Shown: positions 11,000-22,975, counted from the first letter of the stretch. The stretch: 32,014 nt of DNA from Anaerolineales bacterium (GCA_016935415.1 JAFGRA010000125.1:1-32014), one strand, 5' to 3'. Made by a program: numbers and translations. The notes: generated by a model not told the origin, from the sequence alone.

Positions 11000-11887
11000 C
11001 TATTTACCAGCCATTGCCTTTTCTAGCATGGCACGCCAGGGAGGGACTTCGATTCCAAAAGTTTTTTCAAAGCGTTCACACGAGAGTGGTGAATGCACCG
11101 GACGGCGGGCAGGAGCAGGAAACTCAGCCGATGAAGCCGGAACGATCTCTTCCACGATTTGCTCTGCTTTTCCGGGGTCCAGAGCCAGGATTGCGCGCGC
11201 CCATTCGTAACGATTCACAGCGCCCTTACCACTCAAATGATAAAGGCCACCGTGATCCTGTGCAAAGTTATAGCATGTATCGCCACCTTTGGCAATCACC
11301 TGGGCGGTTAGATTTGCCAACGCCTTGCTCCAGGTCGGGCTGCCGGTCTGGTCATCCACGATACGTAAAGTTTTGTGATGGCGCGCCCATTTCAGCACCT
11401 TGGTGACGAAACTCTGGTCGCCGCCCACGCTGTAGACCCAACTGGTTCGAAAGATGAAATATGCGCCGCCGGCCGCCATGATCGCCTGGTCCCCAGCCAG
11501 TTTGGTTTTGCCGTACACGCTGAGCGGGTTGGCCGCATCGTCCTCCACATATATGGTTGGCTTGGTGCCATCATACACAAAATCGGTCGAATAATGAACC
11601 AGCACAGCGTTGAGCCGGGCGGATTCCTCTGCCAGGGCACGCACCGCGGTAGCATTGATTGCTTCGGCAATTTCCGGTTGTTCCTCAGCCTTGTCGACCA
11701 GTGTATACGCCGCGGCATTGACGATCAACCCAGGTTGCACTTCGCCGACGAACTGGCGCAGCGCGTCCGGTTTCGTAAAGTCGATCTCAGGGTAATCGAC
11801 CGCCGTCAACGTCCCAAATTGAGGTAGGATGCGGGCAAACTCACCGCCAAGCTGGCCGTTCTTGCCAAGCAAAAGGATTTGCATCAT
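11000..11887 (-). CDS. rfbD: dTDP-4-dehydrorhamnose reductase
   Basis: QILLLGKNGQLGGEFARIL, NAAAYTLVDKAEEQPEIAEAIN, YSTDFVYDGTKP.Y.EDDAANPLSVYGKTKLAGD. Confidence 0.95.
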   Translation of the reverse strand: MMQILLLGKNGQLGGEFARILPQFGTLTAVDYPEIDFTKPDALRQFVGEVQPGLIVNAAAYTLVDKAEEQPEIAEAINATAVRALAEESARLNAVLVHYSTDFVYDGTKPTIYVEDDAANPLSVYGKTKLAGDQAIMAAGGAYFIFRTSWVYSVGGDQSFVTKVLKWARHHKTLRIVDDQTGSPTWSKALANLTAQVIAKGGDTCYNFAQDHGGLYHLSGKGAVNRYEWARAILALDPGKAEQIVEEIVPASSAEFPAPARRPVHSPLSCERFEKTFGIEVPPWRAMLEKAMAGK

Positions 11888-11894
11888 ACTCCAA

Positions 11895-12770
11895 TCAGCT
11901 GATCTCGCCGCTCACCAAACGCAGCAAGTAGGCCCTATATTCGTTATCGCCCAGCTTATCTGCCAGCGCCTGCAATTGCTGGCGGTCGATATAACCCATG
12001 CGATAGGCAATTTCATCCACACAGGAGATCATCATCCCCTGGCGTTCTTCCACCGCCTGCACAAAATTGGCGGCCTGCAACAAAGAATCATGTGTCCCCG
12101 AATCGATCCAGGCTACGCCGCGCCCTAACACAGTGACCTTCAATTCCCGCTTTTCGAGATAGATGCGGTTCAGGTCGGTGATCTCGATCTCACCACGCGG
12201 CGACGGCGCCAGCGATTCGGCATACTCGACCACATGCCGGTCGTAGAAGTACATCCCTGGCACGGCATAATTTGATTTAGGGTGTTCTGGTTTTTCTTCG
12301 ATGCCGATCGCGGTGCCCTGTTCATCAAATTCGACCACGCCATAACGCCGTGGATTGCGCACCTGATAAGCGAAGATCATCGCCCCTTCCTCCAGGTTCG
12401 CCGCGGCCCGCAGTTGCTCCGGCAATCCATGTCCGAAGAAAATATTATCGCCCAAGATCAGGCAGGTCGGCTCACCGTTGATGAATTCCTTCCCCACCAG
12501 AAAAGCATCGGCCAAGCCACGCGGGGATTCCTGGGCCTTATAGGTAAAATTCAAACCCCATTGCTGCCCATCGTCCAACAAACGTTTGAACGCCGGGAGC
12601 TGGTCGGGGGCGCTGATCACCAGGATATCTTTGATCCCGGACAGCATCAGCATCGATAGCGGATAATAGATCATCGGTTTGTCGTAAACCGGCAACAATT
12701 GCTTACTGATCCCCTTCGTTAAGGGAAATAGTCGAGTTCCGTGTCCACCTGCGAGAATAATACCTTTCAC
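11895..12770 (-). CDS. rfbA: Glucose-1-phosphate thymidylyltransferase
   Basis: [68 protein letters not shown]. Confidence 0.97.
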
Positions 12771-13852
12771 TCCACTTCTCCTCTTTCTACGTAGTTTTTA
12801 TCGATCCAGGATTGGTAATCTGACTGATCGCTCACCGCCGTGACCCAATCAGGATGATCGAGGTACCAACGCACCGTTTTCTGCATTCCGGTTGATAACG
12901 ACTCACGCGGCTTCCAGCCCAACTCCTGCTCGATTTTCTTAATGTTCATGGCATAGCGCCGGTCATGTCCCGGTCGGTCGGTTACATATTGGATCAACTG
13001 GTCGTGCGGCACATTGGGCGATGCAGGCAGCCACTCATCCAGGATGTCACAGATCGTCCCAATCACTTCCAAATTGACCGGTTGGTTGTTTCCACCAATG
13101 TTATAGGTTTCACCGGGCTTGCCCTGCTCAACCACCAGCCAGATCGCTTCGCAATGGTCTTCCACGTACAGCCAATCCCGGATTTGCTTGCCATCGCCGT
13201 ATACCGGCAAGGGTTTACCCGTCAGCGCATTCAAGATCATCAAGGGAATTAGTTTTTCTGGGAACTGGTAGGGGCCGTAATTATTGGAACAATTGCTGAT
13301 CGTTACCGGCAAACCGTAAGTGTGATAATACGAGCGTACCAGGTGATCGCTGGAGGCTTTGGATGCAGCATAAGGCGAATTAGGGGCATACGGAGTAGTT
13401 TCCGCAAAGGCGGGATCATCCGGCGCCAATGTACCAAATACCTCATCGGTGGAGACGTGATGGAAGCGCACTTGTTCAAGCGGCTTTAATTCCTCGGTCA
13501 GCCAAAGTTTGCGGGCCGCTTCCAACAGCGTGAAGGTGCCAATGATGTTGGTTTGAATGAAATCAGCTGGGCCAAAAATGGAGCGGTCGACATGCGTTTC
13601 AGCCGCAAAATGCACCACCATATCGATGTCATGGTCGCGGAATAAGCACTCCACCAACTCGCTGTCGAGTATATCCCCTTCAACGAAAATGTGCCGATCA
13701 GGGTCAGGCAGATCACTCAGGTTTTCCAGGCTGCCCGCGTAGGTCAGCTTATCCAAGTTGACGATCTGCACGCCGGTGTCTGCTTGCAGCAGATAGCGCA
13801 CGAAATTAGAGCCGATAAAACCGGCTCCGCCGGTCACAAGTACATTTCGCAT
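12767..13852 (-). CDS. rfbB: dTDP-glucose 4,6-dehydratase
   Basis: [64 protein letters not shown]; 4-nt overlap with rfbA. Confidence 0.97.
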
Positions 13853-13878
13853 ATCTCTCCTCTTTTCAAAACAGACTT

Positions 13879-13906
13879 ATTTTACCAAATATAACTTTGA
13901 TTACAA
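13879..13906 (-). promoter_or_regulatory. Possible internal promoter ahead of rfbB-rfbA-rfbD
   Basis: Minus strand TTGTAA - 16 nt - TAAAAT in the 77-nt rfbC/rfbB gap. Confidence 0.35.
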
Positions 13907-13929
13907 CCAATCAGGCGCACAAATTCTCA

Positions 13930-14481
13930 TCAATCGAACAATTCGGCTTCGCTCAGCAGTTTCCCCTGGGTATCTTTTCCTGAAACCACCGGTTCAATGT
14001 CTCCCTGAAGCGGCCATTCGATCCCAAGCTCCGGATCATTCCACAAAATAGTGCGTTCCCATTGCGGCGCGTAAAAATCCGTGGTCTTATAAGTGACGTA
14101 GGCTTCTTCGCTCAAGACGTAAAAGCCATGTGCGAAACCCGGCGGCACCCAAAGCTGACGGTTGTTCTCATTCGAAAGTTCCGCGCCTACCCATTGACGA
14201 AAAGTGGGTGAACTCTTCCGAATATCCACACATAAATCAAAAATCTTTCCCTTCAAGACCTGCACCAGTTTGCCTTGTGGCTGCTGGATCTGGTAGTGCA
14301 ACCCACGCAACACACCCTGGCGCGATAAAGACATATTATCCTGCACAAATGCGTGTGGAATTCCCACTTTGTTGTATTTTTCCTGCTGATAGGTTTCGAT
14401 GAAATAACCGCGGTCGTCTCCATACACATCCAATTGGATGAGCAAGACATCGGCGATCTTCGTTGAAATGACTGCAACCAT
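13930..14481 (-). CDS. rfbC: dTDP-4-dehydrorhamnose 3,5-epimerase
   Basis: DDRGYFIETYQQEKY, FVQDNMSLSRQGVLRGLHYQIQQPQGKLVQVLKGKIFDLCVDIRKSSPTF, WVPPGFAHGFYVLSEEA. Confidence 0.96.
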   Translation of the reverse strand: MVAVISTKIADVLLIQLDVYGDDRGYFIETYQQEKYNKVGIPHAFVQDNMSLSRQGVLRGLHYQIQQPQGKLVQVLKGKIFDLCVDIRKSSPTFRQWVGAELSNENNRQLWVPPGFAHGFYVLSEEAYVTYKTTDFYAPQWERTILWNDPELGIEWPLQGDIEPVVSGKDTQGKLLSEAELFD

Positions 14482-14517: not shown

Positions 14518-16065
14518 TCAACGGATCCAGTTGAAGCAGCAACCGGTATCACCAATGAGTGGTCTTAGGTCATAAACTTCCCCACCATCAACGGGGACGT
14601 AAAGGTCTTTATAAGCAAACAAGCTCCTGAAGAACATCGCGCTGCCATCCGGTAACCAGCCGCAAGTATGCAAACGGTTATCACAATCCGGGATACTCCC
14701 CAGATAGACACCCTCCTGGAGGTTGCCTACATCAAAAATATAAGTTGTTAGATCATGCAGCTTCAGTTCATCAAACCACAGCGAATTGCCGGTATGATAA
14801 TCCATACTGGCAAAAGCAATGCGGCGGTACGGAAACTCGAAGGGCGCAAACACATAATCTCCCAGATCGCCTTCTAAGGGCACATTGGTAGTCTCAAAAG
14901 CAATCCCTGCGCTGGACAAAAGCAGCCGCGCCAACATGATGGTTGGCTTAACCTCTCCGCTCCCTTCATCGGGTAACCCACGCAGCATCAACAAGCGTTC
15001 ATCATTGAGCCAAATTACAGAAGGTTTCGGATCGGTCAGGCCGTAATCAGAGCGAGGCACCTCTGCGATCAGGCTAAGCTGGGTATCGAATACCCCAATC
15101 GATTTACCTTCCTCACCTTCGATATCGAAGAGGATATACTGCCCGCTGGGCGACCACGCGCTGGGTGAATAGCGCGTCAGGATAACGGCAGAACGTTCTT
15201 CCCATTCATCCCCAATGATCACCCTGGCCTGGCTGCCAATACGCGCCAGCCAAACGCCGCCGCCCCGCCAGGTGAGCCATAAGCTGTCCGGCGCCCACAA
15301 GATCGGCTCCGAGAAACAGCCTGTGTAACTGCCATCCAGGCAGCTATCAAAGACGATCGGGGCAGTGATCCCATCCGTGCGCACTACTGCGGCCACGTGC
15401 TGGCTCACATCCTGCCCGGTAAACATCACCCGGTATTGCCATTCAATGAAGGCAATCCAAACACCGTCGGGAGAAGGCATAATCGCCTTGAACGGTTGGC
15501 TCTCATCCCATTCCCAGGGCACTTCGTAGATCAAGCGAACGCGATTGAGCAACAAATTCACATCGTATAACCTGAAAGTGCGCTCCTGACCTTCCTCATT
15601 GTTATTTTCAGCAACTACACTGATGTTACGGGCGCTCTCATTGATGGCGTACTTCCAAATCTTTCCAGAAATAAAGATCTCGGCATCGTCCCCACTGCCC
15701 AAGAAGGTAGTAACTTCCCCAGTATCCCGGCTCAGCCGCTTGACCACGCCCTCAGCAGGTTCAAGCCAAATCAAGTCATAGGTCAGATTCTCCGGCACAC
15801 CCTGCTTCGGCGAATAGACGAACGGCGTCAATGTCGGCTGTAATTCCTGATTCAACACCGGGTTATCTTCATCCATCTGGACAATCACTGGTGTCGCTGT
15901 CGGGAGTTGGAATTCCGGCTCTACCGGCGTTGGTGTCGGTGTGGAAACTTTAATGTTGCCCAATTTATTCCCCTGGCAGGAAACAAACACCAAACTCAAC
16001 AGAGTCAGGCAGAGCATCCCCAATGAAAGACGACCAACCAGGCGTTTATTAAAGTGTGCGTTCAT
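14518..16065 (-). CDS. Exported lipoprotein with T/P-rich linker and predicted WD40/TolB-like beta-propeller
   Basis: Signal peptide ending LVFVSC; STPTPTPVEPEFQLPTATPV linker; repeated blade-like segments (PSPDGVWIAFIEWQ, WAPDSLWLTWRGGGVW, WSPSGQYILFDIEG, WLPDGSAMFF). Confidence 0.8.
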   Translation of the reverse strand: MNAHFNKRLVGRLSLGMLCLTLLSLVFVSCQGNKLGNIKVSTPTPTPVEPEFQLPTATPVIVQMDEDNPVLNQELQPTLTPFVYSPKQGVPENLTYDLIWLEPAEGVVKRLSRDTGEVTTFLGSGDDAEIFISGKIWKYAINESARNISVVAENNNEEGQERTFRLYDVNLLLNRVRLIYEVPWEWDESQPFKAIMPSPDGVWIAFIEWQYRVMFTGQDVSQHVAAVVRTDGITAPIVFDSCLDGSYTGCFSEPILWAPDSLWLTWRGGGVWLARIGSQARVIIGDEWEERSAVILTRYSPSAWSPSGQYILFDIEGEEGKSIGVFDTQLSLIAEVPRSDYGLTDPKPSVIWLNDERLLMLRGLPDEGSGEVKPTIMLARLLLSSAGIAFETTNVPLEGDLGDYVFAPFEFPYRRIAFASMDYHTGNSLWFDELKLHDLTTYIFDVGNLQEGVYLGSIPDCDNRLHTCGWLPDGSAMFFRSLFAYKDLYVPVDGGEVYDLRPLIGDTGCCFNWIR

Positions 16066-16143: not shown

Positions 16144-17247
16144 TTATCCAAACAGGTAACTGTAATATTTCGCCAGCGCTTTTGTCTTGAAGAGCCGCAT
16201 CAGCAAAAAGGGAATACCAACGGCAATCACGATCAATAAGGGCTGGAACAGGAACTGATACCGGAACAAGAACGGTACCGTCGCCGACAACATAGGCATA
16301 ATCAACAAGATCACCAACGGGTGCATCAGATAAATGCCAAAAGAATGGGCATTCAATTCGTGGAACGTCTTTGCCAATGGGAAAGCAGAATCCTTGAAGC
16401 CCAAGAAGGCTAGAACAAAGCAGATCACGTAAATCGTGATACTCAACGTGAAGGGATTACTGCGCCAGTTCTCTCCCCCGGTGAAACTGTAAATCGCTTC
16501 GTTTTCGAGCAGACCGACGAACAGGAAAACCACCGCCAACCCCAAGAACAGCCATTTATACTTCGTCAATAGCTGGACTTTCATCAAATCCAGGCTAATC
16601 ACGATGCCTAAGGTGAAATAGAAGATCCACTTCGTGAACAAGGCCCAACGTCCCGCAAGCATGAACAGCCAACTCCAACGCGGATCGACCACCCAGATTT
16701 GGGCATAATTCAGCGCGATCATCACCAACTGGATTGCAGCCGCACCGATCAGCACCTTGCCGGGATGCGATTTCGCCAACGGGACGATCACCAACGCCAG
16801 CAGATACAATTGGATCAGCAGCGGTACATAATAATATTCGGGAAACGCCCCACCATACGCCAAGCGGGCCACGTAACGCAGCGGGGAATAGACACTGCCG
16901 TTCAGCCCCCAATAGACGAACGCGATCGCCGACCAGATCAGATAAGGGATCAGCAGCTTGGTGATACGCGCCCGCACCATTTTCCAGGACAACACCGATT
17001 GTTCCCCGCGTGCCGCGTAGGCCACGAAAAAACCGGAGACGAACAGAAAGGCTGGCACACTGAAGGTGGTGATCTTTTGAATGAGCGTCAGACTATAGTA
17101 GACTACCGGCCCGATTTGTTCCGGGCCAATGCCTGCAAACGGCTGCTCCACCACCCAGGACATCACAATGAAACCCCAATTAGCAGCGTGGTGCGCCACC
17201 ACTGCGACAATCGCCAGACCACTGAGTATGAATAATCGTTTTATCAT
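16144..17247 (-). CDS. Acyltransferase family 3 (OafA/WecH-like) integral membrane protein
   Basis: 367 aa, about 10 TM segments; FSVPAFLFVSGFFVAY, KMVRARITKLLIPYLIWSAIAFVYW, NAHSFGIYLMHPLVI. Confidence 0.85.
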   Translation of the reverse strand: MIKRLFILSGLAIVAVVAHHAANWGFIVMSWVVEQPFAGIGPEQIGPVVYYSLTLIQKITTFSVPAFLFVSGFFVAYAARGEQSVLSWKMVRARITKLLIPYLIWSAIAFVYWGLNGSVYSPLRYVARLAYGGAFPEYYYVPLLIQLYLLALVIVPLAKSHPGKVLIGAAAIQLVMIALNYAQIWVVDPRWSWLFMLAGRWALFTKWIFYFTLGIVISLDLMKVQLLTKYKWLFLGLAVVFLFVGLLENEAIYSFTGGENWRSNPFTLSITIYVICFVLAFLGFKDSAFPLAKTFHELNAHSFGIYLMHPLVILLIMPMLSATVPFLFRYQFLFQPLLIVIAVGIPFLLMRLFKTKALAKYYSYLFG

Positions 17248-17260
17248 TCGCTTCCAGGCT

Positions 17261-18163
17261 TCATCGTGTCTGCGTCAAAATGGCTCGAATGGCGCCAGCT
17301 GGATTGGTGATCGATTCTACAGTTTGATAATTGGCATTATTCTGTATGCGCCGCAGCATGGCTTCGCCTTGCCCCAGGCCAACCTCGAAGCACAACCACG
17401 AAGCCGGCTTGAGGTACTCCGGCGCTTCCTTTATCAGACGCATGATTAATGATACGCCAAACGGGCCACCATCGAAAGCCAACTGCGGCTCGTGGGCGCT
17501 GATCTCTTCCGGCATCTTTTCCAGGTTCCCCGAAGAAATATACGGGGGGTTACATGTTACCAGGTCTACCGGCCCAATGCCAGCCGCGTCAAGCGGTGCA
17601 AACAAATCACCGACCAAGAACTGTACCATATCCATCATCTGGAGATATTCAGCATTGGCCTCAGCCAGGGCCACGGCTTCAGCAGACAAGTCGCACCCGT
17701 ATACAACACAGTTTTGTTCATAATGCGCCAATGCCAGCGCAAGATTTCCAGCACCAGTACACAAATCGACTACCTTAACGCCCCCCCTGGCCTCTACCAG
17801 TCCATACAGCTTCTCTAACGCAGCATATCCTAACAGTTCAGTCTCCCGGCGGGGAATCAAGGCAGCTTCACTCGCCAGGAATTCAAGCTCCATGAAACAC
17901 TGCCGCTCGGTAAGATGTGCCAGTGGTATGCCCTCCAGCCGTCTAGAGACATACTCCCGCAACGCGCTCTCTTCTGCTTCGGACAAAAGCGGTAGTTCAC
18001 CCAGTGTTTGGCAGCCGATCGCTCGGGGTAAGCCATATGCGAGAAACCATAAAGTTTTCAGTGTGGTTTCCGGCGTCTCCTCCGGTTTATCCGGCAGGGA
18101 TTGCCAATCCGCCTTGATCTGGGCGAGTAATTCGCGGTACAGTTCCTGATCTTCGATAGTCAA
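17261..18163 (-). CDS. HemK/PrmC-family (N5-glutamine methyltransferase-like) methyltransferase
   Basis: PLAHLTERQCFMELEFLASEAALIPRRETELL, VVDLCTGAGNLALALA, VTCNPPYISSGNLEKMPEEISAHEPQLAFDGG. The ORF-track start at 18316 runs into the upstream gene; TTG at 18163 is suggested as start. Confidence 0.85.
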   Translation of the reverse strand: MTIEDQELYRELLAQIKADWQSLPDKPEETPETTLKTLWFLAYGLPRAIGCQTLGELPLLSEAEESALREYVSRRLEGIPLAHLTERQCFMELEFLASEAALIPRRETELLGYAALEKLYGLVEARGGVKVVDLCTGAGNLALALAHYEQNCVVYGCDLSAEAVALAEANAEYLQMMDMVQFLVGDLFAPLDAAGIGPVDLVTCNPPYISSGNLEKMPEEISAHEPQLAFDGGPFGVSLIMRLIKEAPEYLKPASWLCFEVGLGQGEAMLRRIQNNANYQTVESITNPAGAIRAILTQTR

Positions 18164-18170
18164 ATCAACC

Positions 18171-19169
18171 TCAATCCAGGTGCACGACCGGCATGCGTAG
18201 GTATTCAGTCGTGCGTTTTTTACGCACAACATCGTTGATGATGCGCTCAACCTGCTCGGCTTCCAGTTCCAGGGCCTGGGCGATCTCGGTTTGCGACACG
18301 CCGCGCTCAAAGCCATACCAGACCGTATCGAGGATGTCGAAGGGAATGCGGTAGAAGAACTCTTCCTGGGTGCTGCCGCCCGGATAAGTATCCGTGGTCG
18401 GCACGCGTGAGCGGATGTTCTGCGGAATGTCGAGGTAAGCGGCTAACATATAAACCTGGGCTTTGAACAGGTGGGCAATCGGCTGTACATCCACGCCGCC
18501 ATCACCATATTTCACAAAGAAACCCAGGTCATGTTCGTTCTTATTGCCCGTACCGATCACGGCATAATTGCGCAACTCGGCGTGGTAATAGAGCATATTG
18601 CTGCGCAGGCGCTGCTTGAAATTGGAGGCGGCCACGATCTGTAAATATTCGGCCGCCGGTAGACGCTGGGTGAAGTCTTCACCTTCTGGACTGGTTACGG
18701 TCAGGGAAAAGATATTCAAGGTAGCGCGCTCCAGCAGATCGCCCGGCAAGGTGATCTTGGCGCTCCAACCGGCATCGAACTGCGGGAAAATGCGTTGGAT
18801 GGCTTCATTCCGGCGTGTATAACAACCCAGACCCTTTAGCCCGGCGGTGATGTCTTCAGTGAGTGTGTCCACCCCAAACCGGGCGACCAGTTCCTCAGCA
18901 AAAGGATCATTCTCCGCGCTGGATTCCATTTCCGGCAATTGAATGCCAAGCACGCGTTCGGGGCCAAAAGCACGCACACACAAAGCCAGCACCACCGAGG
19001 AATCGATCCCGCCGCTGATGCCCACCACGGCCCCTTTGCGGCGCATTGTATTGTTTACGGTTTCACGCAGCGTTTCGACAATCCGATTCACTTCCGCTTC
19101 CACGTCGATCTCCAACGCGGCGCGCGTGAATTTATCCGTTTGTTTTTCTACATCTTTACTCATAAACAT
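18171..19169 (-). CDS. NAD synthase-like (NadE family) ATP-PPi ligase/amidase
   Basis: PP-loop [64 protein letters not shown]; overlaps the AsnB gene by 14 nt; ATG at 19163 is an alternative start. Confidence 0.88.
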
Positions 19170-21138
19170 GTTCCTCCGCGGTGCGGCGTACGATCTTGAT
19201 CCGATCGGATTCTTGTAAGGTATTCACCCTGGCTGTAAAGTTGTTCACAAAGAAATGCTGCACCAATTGGGCCGACAGCACCCCCACCAACGCCATCTCA
19301 TCGGTCTCACTGAGCCGCCTGCCGCTGCCTGCCTTACGCAGTAAACGCTGCACCGGTTCCACTTCAAAAAGTCCGGTCTGTTTCAAGGCACGTTCGCCAA
19401 GCATTTCGTCCAGATATTCGGCCCGGTAATCGCCGACGAAGCTATCCTGTACCGGGGCACGGTATGGGCGCTTCGGTCGTCCCCAGATCTCATCTGGGAT
19501 CAATTTACTGCCCAGTTGCTTGAGGATCCACTTCTCCTTCAAGCCACGCAGCTTGAGCCGGGCGGGTAACTTGTTGCTGAATTCGACCACGCGATGATCG
19601 AGGAACGGGTAACGTCCCTCCACCGAGTGCGCCATAGCCACCCGGTCGCCTTGTGAAGATAACAAATACGGCGACATGAAAGTCAGAATTTCCAAGTACT
19701 GCGCCTGCGCCAACGCCGACCAGCCGGAGAACTCCGGCGGCAGGGAAAGTCGCTCCCAATTTTGGGCAGCATCACCACCCTGTCCCACCAGGAAGCGCCG
19801 CAAGCGGGCGGTGTTTTCCCAGCGGATCAGATGTGAATAGAATGGCGAATCCGTCTCCACCAGACCGCGTTTGAAAAAGCCGCGCAGGAAAGCTTCGTTG
19901 GCCGAATCCATCTGGCCAATATCTCGATACAAGCGCCGCAGCAACAACGGGCGCATTTCCGAATCCGGGTCTTTGGCCCAGAAGCGGCGCACAGCCATCT
20001 CCCGGAAAATATTATAGCCGCCCAGCATTTCATCTGCCCCCTCACCGGTCATCACCACCTTCAAGCCACTATCATGTACCAGCCCGGATAATAGAAACAT
20101 CGGTGCCGGGGAAGTGCGCAAGATCGGCGCTTCGGTATGCCAGATCACTTCCGGGAAAACACGGCCGATATCTCTGTGCTCGCAGTGCACGATATGATGT
20201 TCCGTGCCCAGGAAATCGGCCATCTGGCGCTGGTAGGCACTCTCATCATAAGCCGGGTTGGCAAAGCTGATCGAAAAGGTTTCCAGGCGGTTGTCGGTAT
20301 AATTCTTGATGATCGCTGTGGTGGTCGAAGAATCCAGGCCGCCGCTCAAATAGGCGCCCACCGGCACGTCGGCCCGCAGCCGGATCATAGTAGCGTCAAC
20401 CAGCAATTCTTCGAAAGCCTGCAAATACTCATCGTCAGAAGCAAAGGCCGCGTCCTTATCCTGATAATCGAGATGCCAGTAGGCTTCCGTACTGATTTCG
20501 CCATCCTCGACAAGCATGTAATGCGCCGGGGGCAGTGTGTAAATATCTTCGAAGATCGTTTTCGGGGGCAGTACGCTCCAATAGGTGAAGGTCTGGCGCA
20601 AGCTTTCCGGGTCGATGCGGGCCTGCAACGCCGGATGCAGCAGCATCGCTTTGACTTCCGAACCATAGATCAGTTGGCCGTCTCGCACGGCATAATACAA
20701 CGGGCGGATGCCCATCCGATCACGCGCCAGAAACAGGCGCTTTTGGTGATCGTCCCAGATCGCAAAGGCAAACTGCCCGTTGAGGTAGGTCAGACTATCT
20801 GGTCCGTACTCTTCGTACAGGTGAACGATCACTTCCGTGTCGGAGTTGGTCTCGAAACAATGGCCGCGTTTTTCCAGGTCGACGCGCAATTCCAGGTAAT
20901 TGAAAATCTCGCCGTTGAAGACGATCCATACCGAACCATCTTCATTGCCAATCGGTTGGCTGCCGCCCGCCAGGTCAATGATGCTCAAACGCGCACTACC
21001 CATGCCTGTCTTCGCATCGAGATAGATGCCAAACTCGTCCGGGCCGCGGTGACGCAGCATGGCCAACATTTGTTTGAGCAGCGCTTCTGGCACCACCGCC
21101 CCACTATTTAAATTGTGTACACCAACAATGCCACACAC
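19156..21138 (-). CDS. asnB: Asparagine synthase-like glutamine-hydrolysing amidotransferase
   Basis: MCGIVGVHN (Cys2 nucleophile), [33 protein letters not shown]-loop [18 protein letters not shown]. Confidence 0.95.
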
Positions 21139-21150
21139 GATACCGATCCT

Positions 21151-22689
21151 TTAGACTTGCTCGGCCTGTTCGGCTTGCAAAGCGCGCTTGTCGATCTTGC
21201 CATGTGCACTCTTCGGCAGCGCGTCCCGAATTTCAATTTGCCGCGGCACAAAATAATCTTCCATGTTCGCCCGGCAGTAACGCAACACTTCCGCGGCAGT
21301 GATCTCTTCCCGATCCACGACCACGAACGCCTTGACAGCCTGTCCCAAAATCGGGTCGGGCACGCCGACCACGGCGACTTCCTGCACGCCCAACATGCGG
21401 TAAAGAATGCCCTCGATCTCTTTCGGGGCAACTTTTTCACCGCGGCTCTTGATAATGTCATCTTTGCGGGAGACAAAATAGAAATAGCCCGCTGCGTCCG
21501 TTTTGAACAGATCACCGGTATAACACAGACGCTCACCGGGAATCGGGCCGGGGCGAAAGCGGTCCGCACTGGCCTCTGGATCATGCCAGTAGCCACGCAT
21601 CACGTGTCGTCCTCGCACCACCAACTCGCCAACTCCCCCCGTACCCAGGCGTTGGCCGTCTTCACCCTCGATCCAGGCCTCCGTGCCGGGAATCGGGACG
21701 CCCACCGAACCCGGGCGTTCGTTCAACTGCTCTGGCGGCAGATAAAGCGTGCGCTTGGTTTCACTGAGGCCGTACATCGAATATAGCGTCGCCCAATCGA
21801 ACTTATCCCGCAATTGCTCGATATGCTCGACCGGCAAAGCCGCGGCGGTGTTGGTCAGATAGCGTAGGTTGGACAGGTCGTAGTGGCTCAAATCAATTTG
21901 CAAGAGCATGGCAAAAGTGGTCGGCACGCCTGGGAAACCGGTCACCTGCTCGGTCTCCATTTTCGTGAGCACTGCCGCCGGGAAAGTGAACCCTTTTTCC
22001 AAAACCAGCCGTCCGCCAAAACGGAACGTCATCAACAGCTGGTACAGGCCGTAATCGAAGGACATCGGCACCGCGCACAGGATCACGTCGTCTTCAACGT
22101 TGCCAATGTAGGAAATGATCGCATCGGCAGCAAACACCATATTACTGTGATCGCACATGATGCACTTGGGGGTGCCGGTACTGCCCGACGTCGAGATCAG
22201 ACAAGCTAGATCGAGGTCAATATTGACGTGTTCTGGACGCTGATCTGGATATTGTTCCTGCACAACATCCCAGGCAACCACATCTCCCGCGTTCGACTCT
22301 GCCCCACTGACGATCACCTTCCTGAGCGAAGCAACTTGAGCGATCGCGTCCTGGTTGGGCACGTACCCGCGTTGATCAGTGATCAACCCGGCGCATTCAC
22401 CAAGCTCCAATAGATACTTTAATTTATCGCCTTTGGTGGTATGGTTGATGACCATGAACACGCCCCCGGCCTTCAACACGCCAAAAATACTTACAACTAA
22501 TTCAATGCTGTTCGGCAAGAACAGCGCCACCCGGTCGCCACGCGCCACACCCTGGGCACACAAAGCATGCGCCAGGCGGTTGGCGCGCAGCTCTATTTCT
22601 GTATAAGTCAGGCGCTCACTGCCGCTAACCAGGCAAACTTTTTCACCCAGGCGGTCAGCACTGCGCTCGAGGAATTCATGCAGCAACAT
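21151..22689 (-). CDS. AMP-forming acyl/aminoacyl-ACP ligase (ANL superfamily adenylation enzyme)
   Basis: LISTSGSTGTPKCIMCDHSNMV, YGLSETKRTLYLPP, CYTGDLFKTDAAGYFYFVSRKDDIIKSRGEKVAPKEIE, C-terminal catalytic Lys in LPKSAHGKIDKRAL. Confidence 0.93.
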   Translation of the reverse strand: MLLHEFLERSADRLGEKVCLVSGSERLTYTEIELRANRLAHALCAQGVARGDRVALFLPNSIELVVSIFGVLKAGGVFMVINHTTKGDKLKYLLELGECAGLITDQRGYVPNQDAIAQVASLRKVIVSGAESNAGDVVAWDVVQEQYPDQRPEHVNIDLDLACLISTSGSTGTPKCIMCDHSNMVFAADAIISYIGNVEDDVILCAVPMSFDYGLYQLLMTFRFGGRLVLEKGFTFPAAVLTKMETEQVTGFPGVPTTFAMLLQIDLSHYDLSNLRYLTNTAAALPVEHIEQLRDKFDWATLYSMYGLSETKRTLYLPPEQLNERPGSVGVPIPGTEAWIEGEDGQRLGTGGVGELVVRGRHVMRGYWHDPEASADRFRPGPIPGERLCYTGDLFKTDAAGYFYFVSRKDDIIKSRGEKVAPKEIEGILYRMLGVQEVAVVGVPDPILGQAVKAFVVVDREEITAAEVLRYCRANMEDYFVPRQIEIRDALPKSAHGKIDKRALQAEQAEQV

Positions 22690-22720
22690 TGTTTACACCA
22701 ATAATTTTCTCAAAAAAAGC

Positions 22721-22975
22721 TTAATTTGCTTTCGAGCGTATATAACCCGCCAGCTTACTGACCGAATCGAAATTGTCAGGCACAACTTCGTGGTCTTCGA
22801 CAGTAATTTTGTAGTTCTCCTCCACAAACATGACCAATTCCAACACATTCATAGAATCCACCACACCCTCTTCCATGAAAGAAGCTTCATCCGCAAAAGG
22901 ATAACCATTACCTGAGAACAGGATATTCTCAGCTATAAAACTCCGAACGGCCTCTTCAATTTGCATGATCTTCAA
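22721..22975 (-). CDS. Acyl carrier protein (phosphopantetheine attachment domain)
   Basis: 84 aa; EEGVVDSMNVLELVMFVEENYKITVEDHEV with the DSM attachment Ser; taggag SD. Confidence 0.93.
   Translation of the reverse strand: MKIMQIEEAVRSFIAENILFSGNGYPFADEASFMEEGVVDSMNVLELVMFVEENYKITVEDHEVVPDNFDSVSKLAGYIRSKAN

Follow-up and report, generated by a model that had tools for sequence, protein, structure and literature searches.

A conserved ACP, ligase, AsnB and NadE-like gene cassette in an Anaerolineales contig as a candidate carrier-bound amidation pathway

The window analyzed here is a 32,014-nucleotide (nt) stretch of DNA from an Anaerolineales bacterium (GCA_016935415.1, JAFGRA010000125.1:1-32014), and is the entire contig C222 of a Chloroflexota assembly with 425 contigs (completeness 95%, contamination 6.5%). 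On its minus strand, at 16144-22975, six intact and tightly packed genes form a cassette for an acyl carrier protein (ACP), an ANL (AMP-forming) ligase, an AsnB-family enzyme, a NadE-like enzyme, a HemK-like protein and an acyltransferase-3 (AT3). The first four are the conserved unit, with the HemK-like and acyltransferase genes as optional partners, and a carrier-bound amidation pathway is their likely function. The core would build a small aminoacyl unit with an amide group, held on its own carrier protein, and we put the probability of this whole scheme at about 0.5. A wider proposal is tentative: the cassette could be a widespread, undescribed pathway in which an ACP-bound aspartate-type diacid is converted to an amide or amidine by AsnB and the NadE-like enzyme. 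In some cassettes, a PrmC paralogue now serving small-molecule or glycan chemistry in place of translation would add an N-methyl group. No description of this gene combination was found in open-licence papers.

Conservation of the core genes

Species genomes were scanned for relatives of the NadE-like protein (431 matches), and the best 80 of the 431 were read, which biases the locus distances. Partner genes were counted within 8 kb of the NadE-like gene in the 57 informative loci, those with at least 6 kb of upstream sequence; NadE in GC-rich loci was located by tblastn. The ligase was found in 54/57 loci, ACP in 53/57 and AsnB in 52/57. The relatives read span Cyanobacteria, Chloroflexota, Ignavibacteria, Calditrichia, KSB1, Acidobacteria (including Geothrix), Verrucomicrobia, Planctomycetes and others, and the cassette is also carried on plasmids of Rhizobium, Sinorhizobium, Azospirillum, Mesorhizobium and Shinella. 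One cassette locus (L061) is from the cultured Bellilinea caldifistulae.

Across 301 sampled Chloroflexota genomes, the NadE type was over the cut-off in nine. In eight Chloroflexota relatives AsnB adjoins the NadE-like gene, except in G249, and the ligase, mostly with ACP too, lies on the same contig where the contig is long enough. A close ligase was present in 7/301 genomes, six of which also hold the NadE type (hypergeometric, 6e-10). Because the core recurs in the informative loci and co-occurs to this degree in Chloroflexota, chance co-occurrence of its genes is excluded. A preliminary description of the window, made from the sequence alone, had treated all six genes as linked. That linkage holds for the four-gene core across phyla and plasmids, including its pairing of two ammonia-ligating enzymes, while HemK and the acyltransferase proved only optional (AT3 homologues in 18/85 loci).

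In the seventh genome with a close ligase (G192), ACP, ligase and AsnB are followed not by NadE but by a WbuX-like PP-loop amidotransferase (L163, 12846-13868, plus strand; TIGR03573, 136 bits vs. a cut-off of 203), so the fourth slot may, on this one case, accept another ammonia-ligating enzyme.

Gene calls and catalytic motifs

Gene calls and profile searches agreed with the six families, the packing and the spacing given in the preliminary description: gaps of 31 nt (ACP-ligase) and 12 nt (ligase-AsnB), a 14-nt overlap (AsnB/NadE-like), and gaps of 7 nt (NadE-like/HemK-like) and 13 nt (HemK-like/acyltransferase). The HemK-like gene most likely starts at the TTG at 18163, with GAGG about 5 nt upstream; the longer open reading frame that begins with ATG at 18316 would run 146 nt into NadE. 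The catalytic residues, which had been described as intact, are so in the window and, by motif scan, in relatives (ACP DSM; AsnB Cys2, SGGLDSS and TGEGADE; NadE SGGIDSS; HemK CNPPYI), and the GKIDK motif of the ligase is likewise intact. The window ACP scored 54 bits against NF052616 (OlsHI-type ACP), under the model cut-off. AsnB was over the TIGR01536 cut-off (514 vs. 267 bits), with glutaminase and synthetase motifs present, and the NadE-like protein was over that of PRK00876/NF002048 (436 vs. 313 bits).

Table 1. Cassette genes of the window and the genes downstream of them
Feature	Position	Strand	Profile matches and other features
ACP	22721..22975	-	PP-binding 21.1 bits (cut-off 20.8); Ser in DSM motif
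Ligase (LIG), ANL (AMP-forming)	21151..22689	-	AMP-binding 288 bits; pocket D212 Y213 T281 K312 R313
ASNB, AsnB-family glutamine amidotransferase/synthetase	19156..21138	-	GTG start; Asn_synthase 311 bits and GATase_7 155 bits
NADE-like, PRK00876-subfamily PP-loop enzyme	18171..19169	-	NAD_synthase 184 bits; NF002048 436 bits
HEMK-like, PrmC/HemK paralogue	17261..18163	-	TTG start; TIGR00536 181 bits; CNPPYI, PRRETELLG, AFDGGPFG
AT3, membrane acyltransferase-3, optional partner	16144..17247	-	Acyl_transf_3 (PF01757) 93 bits
515-residue protein	14518-16065	-	Lipoprotein-like N-terminus; proline/threonine stretch; no Pfam match
rmlC, rmlB, rmlA, rmlD	11000-14481	-	Complete dTDP-rhamnose set, directly downstream of the cassette and lipoprotein-like gene

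Ligase pocket and candidate substrate

Pocket residues were taken from a solved-structure alignment to VinN, with residue roles from PMC11253843. Over the pocket region no other solved structure matched as well as VinN (82 bits vs. 42 for the next), whose D230, F231, S299, K330 and R331 align to D212, Y213, T281, K312 and R313 of the window ligase, giving the VinN-type arrangement of Asp, a bulky next residue, Ser/Thr and a Lys-Arg loop. The full DYTKR set occurs in 40/69 cassette-locus ligases, Sinorhizobium meliloti and Mesorhizobium included, and the arginine of R313 in 67/69; the remaining ligases differ at Asp and Lys with Arg retained, save two unrelated ligases. Four other ANL proteins of the same genome, when aligned, all lacked the set. 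Two cassettes (L037, L114) have two ligases each, of which only one has the pocket aspartate, like the VinN/VinM pair.

VinN attaches (2S,3S)-3-methylaspartate to a stand-alone ACP in the form of a beta-amino acid, and VinO processes the free carboxylate of that substrate while it is carrier-bound (PMC11284099). Because the pockets match, the analogy points to an aspartate-type amino-dicarboxylate as the substrate of the window ligase, not a uronate or fatty acid. From the residues retained, we infer that cassette substrates have a second carboxylate in common and that the amino group varies. A fatty-acyl ligase is disfavored by the pocket and by the inability of SMb20650, the S. meliloti counterpart introduced below, to replace FadD (PMC7232532).

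The S. meliloti 1021 plasmid pSymB has one AMP-binding gene only, directly adjoining the cassette ACP. SMb20650 is described as a ligase encoded on pSymB and transcribed together with the ACP SMb20651 (PMC7232532), so the cassette pair is identified with SMb20650/SMb20651, by single-gene count in a record without locus tags. The available text of PMC7232532 reports that co-expression of the two in E. coli gave acylated ACP, in line with the loading role first assigned to ligase and ACP, and further study of the functions of these ACPs has been called for (PMC5686131). The VinN-like pocket provides a short list of candidate acyl groups for SMb20651. The pSymB operon (asnB, SMb20651, SMb20650, nadE) shares with the window the four families, at 40-48% identity, and the ligase pocket; it differs in gene order and in lying outside a glycan operon, though a HemK-clade gene is about 12 kb off. 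That gene (L139, NC_003078 about 1438344-1438958) has polysaccharide and GNAT neighbors in strain ml45 (L135).

The HemK-like methyltransferase

Although optional, the HemK-like gene is a genuine cassette partner, and its product is a cassette-specific PrmC paralogue. HemK homologues were found in 9/85 distinct loci, against about 0.3 PrmC expected in the 1.23 Mb of flanks searched, and they fall with the window protein in a single clade (support 100/100) apart from the PrmC of the same genomes; a chance neighbor was ruled out on these two grounds. The window protein was over the HemK-family TIGR00536 cut-off (181 vs. 115.5 bits), with its NPPY motif present, slightly below the PrmC equivalog cut-off (197.8 vs. 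199.1 bits), and outside the housekeeping PrmC group. Cassette HemKs carry ETE[LI]LG and AFDGGP[FY]G where PrmC has PETELL[VI] and ALDGG; by motif scan the Mesorhizobium HemK, which lacks AFDGGP[FY]G, is the sole exception. In Nostoc (L044) and L062 the gene is part of the operon; in Geothrix and its relatives it follows directly downstream, and in L112 it is on the opposite strand. The plasmid loci of Mesorhizobium and S. meliloti have homologues as well. Among 199 Acidobacteriota genomes, cassette NadE was found in 16 and close HemK members (67% identity or more) in six, in every case about 1-1.5 kb downstream of that NadE gene; the P of about 1e-7 is uncorrected for kinship and overstates independence, since the six are related. 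A HemK search of the Chloroflexota sample at E below 1e-45 returned none besides the window's own, hence its optional status.

By its own terms, the preliminary description would have been refuted if these were the only nadE and prmC of the genome. They are not: contig C35 carries a PrmC above the curated cut-off and contig C329 another NadE, so the cassette copies are paralogues and a housekeeping role for them was ruled out.

PrmC methylates a glutamine side-chain amide, and the HemK-like protein could act on a small-molecule amide made by the cassette. It is rather unlikely, in our estimate, that it instead methylates a protein and that linkage reflects co-regulation only. The characterized HemK/PrmC relatives known to us all act on proteins, and most cassettes are without HemK; however, a cassette-specific clade recurs across several phyla, within the operon in the Nostoc locus and L062. 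The N-methyl-glutamyl legionaminic acid of flagellin was considered as a parallel; the paper examined names no cassette genes, and the parallel stands as a lead only.

AsnB, the NadE-like enzyme and the proposed amidation

In almost every relative, AsnB retains its motifs for glutaminase and synthetase activity. The NadE-like protein retains the PP-loop and GFFxKYGDGG core, together with N183, R187, F217, F218, K220, D223, D227 and K236. It has an insertion of ~45 residues at about 124-176, ahead of the helix with N183 and R187, that is absent from 21 housekeeping NadEs; this and the second NadE of the genome set it apart from a housekeeping NadE. In the predicted model (predicted local distance difference test, pLDDT, 82.8) the insertion forms three strands. 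The nearest structural matches of the model, NadE and NMN synthetase, set a precedent for a change of substrate within the NadE family. In four loci (L115, L120, L121, G469:C118) two NadE-like genes are adjacent, the second copy being divergent.

The cassettes of Chloroflexota sit among glycosyltransferases, Wzc-like kinases, rml genes and AT3, and FemAB/GNAT proteins come after the cassette in several other loci. Cassettes of the Rhizobiaceae can stand alone, and that of Shinella is near sugar transport genes. Given lone cassettes there and glycan neighbors elsewhere, a glycan is the likely target in most lineages, judged by neighborhood, and lies outside the core function. The glycan-locus setting of the preliminary description holds for Chloroflexota but is not universal.

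This setting bears on an unlikely alternative in which the carboxylate is sugar-borne: AsnB (WbpS-like) and/or the NadE-like enzyme would make a uronamide or nucleotide-sugar amide, and ligase and ACP would deliver an aminoacyl group separately, as in the Wbp/Vim pathway of Porphyromonas gingivalis. AsnB resembles TIGR03108 (455 bits, cut-off 817), a family tied to the WbpS uronamide enzyme by PMC7468200. NadE normally acts on a dinucleotide, and the FemAB/GNAT genes would suit such a route. Against it, lone cassettes exist outside glycan loci, no uronate-forming gene is present among the annotated window genes (rmlABCD included there), and R313 already indicates that the substrate of the ligase has a free carboxylate.

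A different product, judged quite improbable, is an amidine: AsnB would make a carboxamide, the NadE-like enzyme would adenylate the amide oxygen and add a second ammonia, and HemK may then N-methylate the carboxamidine. Such a route explains why two enzymes with intact ammonia-ligating active sites are conserved together. The WbuX-like protein in the NadE slot of G192 belongs here too, as TIGR03573 covers N-acetyl sugar amidotransferases and the WbuX family includes enzymes converting acetamido to acetamidino groups on sugars; it is, however, a single replacement below the model cut-off, and the NadE family, to our knowledge, is known to form amides but not amidines. Independent functions (a true NAD/NMN synthetase and a true asparagine synthetase that merely provide cofactor and amino acid, and unrelated acylation by ligase and ACP) are very improbable: NadE-type core residues are kept and AsnB is over the TIGR01536 cut-off, but the genes are strictly linked in distant phyla alongside a separate housekeeping NadE, and the insertion precedes the substrate-binding helix of the NadE-like protein.

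Proposed pathway and comparison with known systems

Under carrier-bound amidation, the ligase would adenylate an aspartate-type amino-dicarboxylic acid at the beta-carboxyl and load it on ACP, as its VinN-like pocket suggests, with the second carboxylate left free and held by R313. By family chemistry, AsnB would free ammonia from glutamine, and AsnB and/or the NadE-like enzyme would adenylate and amidate the free carboxylate on the carrier. In a subset including the window, the HemK-like protein might N-methylate the new amide, by analogy with PrmC. The unit would then be handed to an acyltransferase, AT3 in the window and a FemAB/GNAT type elsewhere, and in most lineages, to go by the neighborhood, placed on a surface polysaccharide or its sugar precursor.

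Several points weigh against this scheme. We know of no product for the cassette. A single free carboxylate calls for only one amidating enzyme, which leaves the other superfluous unless one of them mainly supplies ammonia or a second site exists. AsnB was not nearby in 5/57 informative loci. The complete DYTKR set is missing from 29/69 ligases (two of the 29 being the unrelated ligases), so the substrate probably varies among cassettes. The four S. meliloti genes lie outside any glycan operon, near minCDE, and the available text of PMC7232532 does not name the acyl group that SMb20651 carries.

The VinN/VinL/VinO system of vicenistatin shares with the cassette a stand-alone ANL ligase and ACP, the pocket residues, and a free carboxylate handled on the carrier. 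VinO is a pyridoxal phosphate (PLP) decarboxylase, whereas the cassette has ammonia-ligating partners and no polyketide synthase; no PLP decarboxylase was found beside ligase and ACP among the window proteins scanned. XrtA/PEP-CTERM exopolysaccharide loci resemble the cassette in polysaccharide context and in their ligase (TIGR03098, 433 bits) and AsnB (TIGR03108) models, but both window proteins were under the cut-offs (592 and 817) and the cassette adds the NadE-like enzyme. The P. gingivalis linking-sugar pathway likewise combines AsnB-type amidation with amino-acid transfer in sugar decoration; there the amide is on a uronate, and ACP and NAD synthetase are not mentioned in PMC7468200. With the NadE/NMN synthetase and PrmC/HemK families, the cassette proteins have fold and catalytic motifs in common, and they differ as separate paralogous groups, by the insertion in the NadE-like protein and by the altered motifs and own clade of the HemK-like protein.

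The names NAD synthase, asparagine synthase and peptide release factor methyltransferase probably mask a shared pathway in many bacteria, S. meliloti included. If the scheme is correct, amidation would join the known chemistry on carrier-bound amino-dicarboxylates, a PrmC paralogue would gain a small-molecule role and a NadE paralogue a non-NAD role, and database names would be corrected.

Other neighboring genes

Upstream of the cassette in Anaerolineae (L039, L053, L055, L056, L062, L064, L069, L076, L100), a B12-type radical SAM protein of ~551 residues was found, nearest to HpnJ-like models and below their cut-off. An exported protein of ~300 residues, without a Pfam match, recurs beside the cassette (L062 10998-11879, L092 11009-11938, L044 11199-12071), with H67, S69, G71 and H262 invariant (L062 numbering). 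It is perhaps an SGNH-like acyl-transfer protein (predicted model pLDDT 58.8, structure matches not significant).

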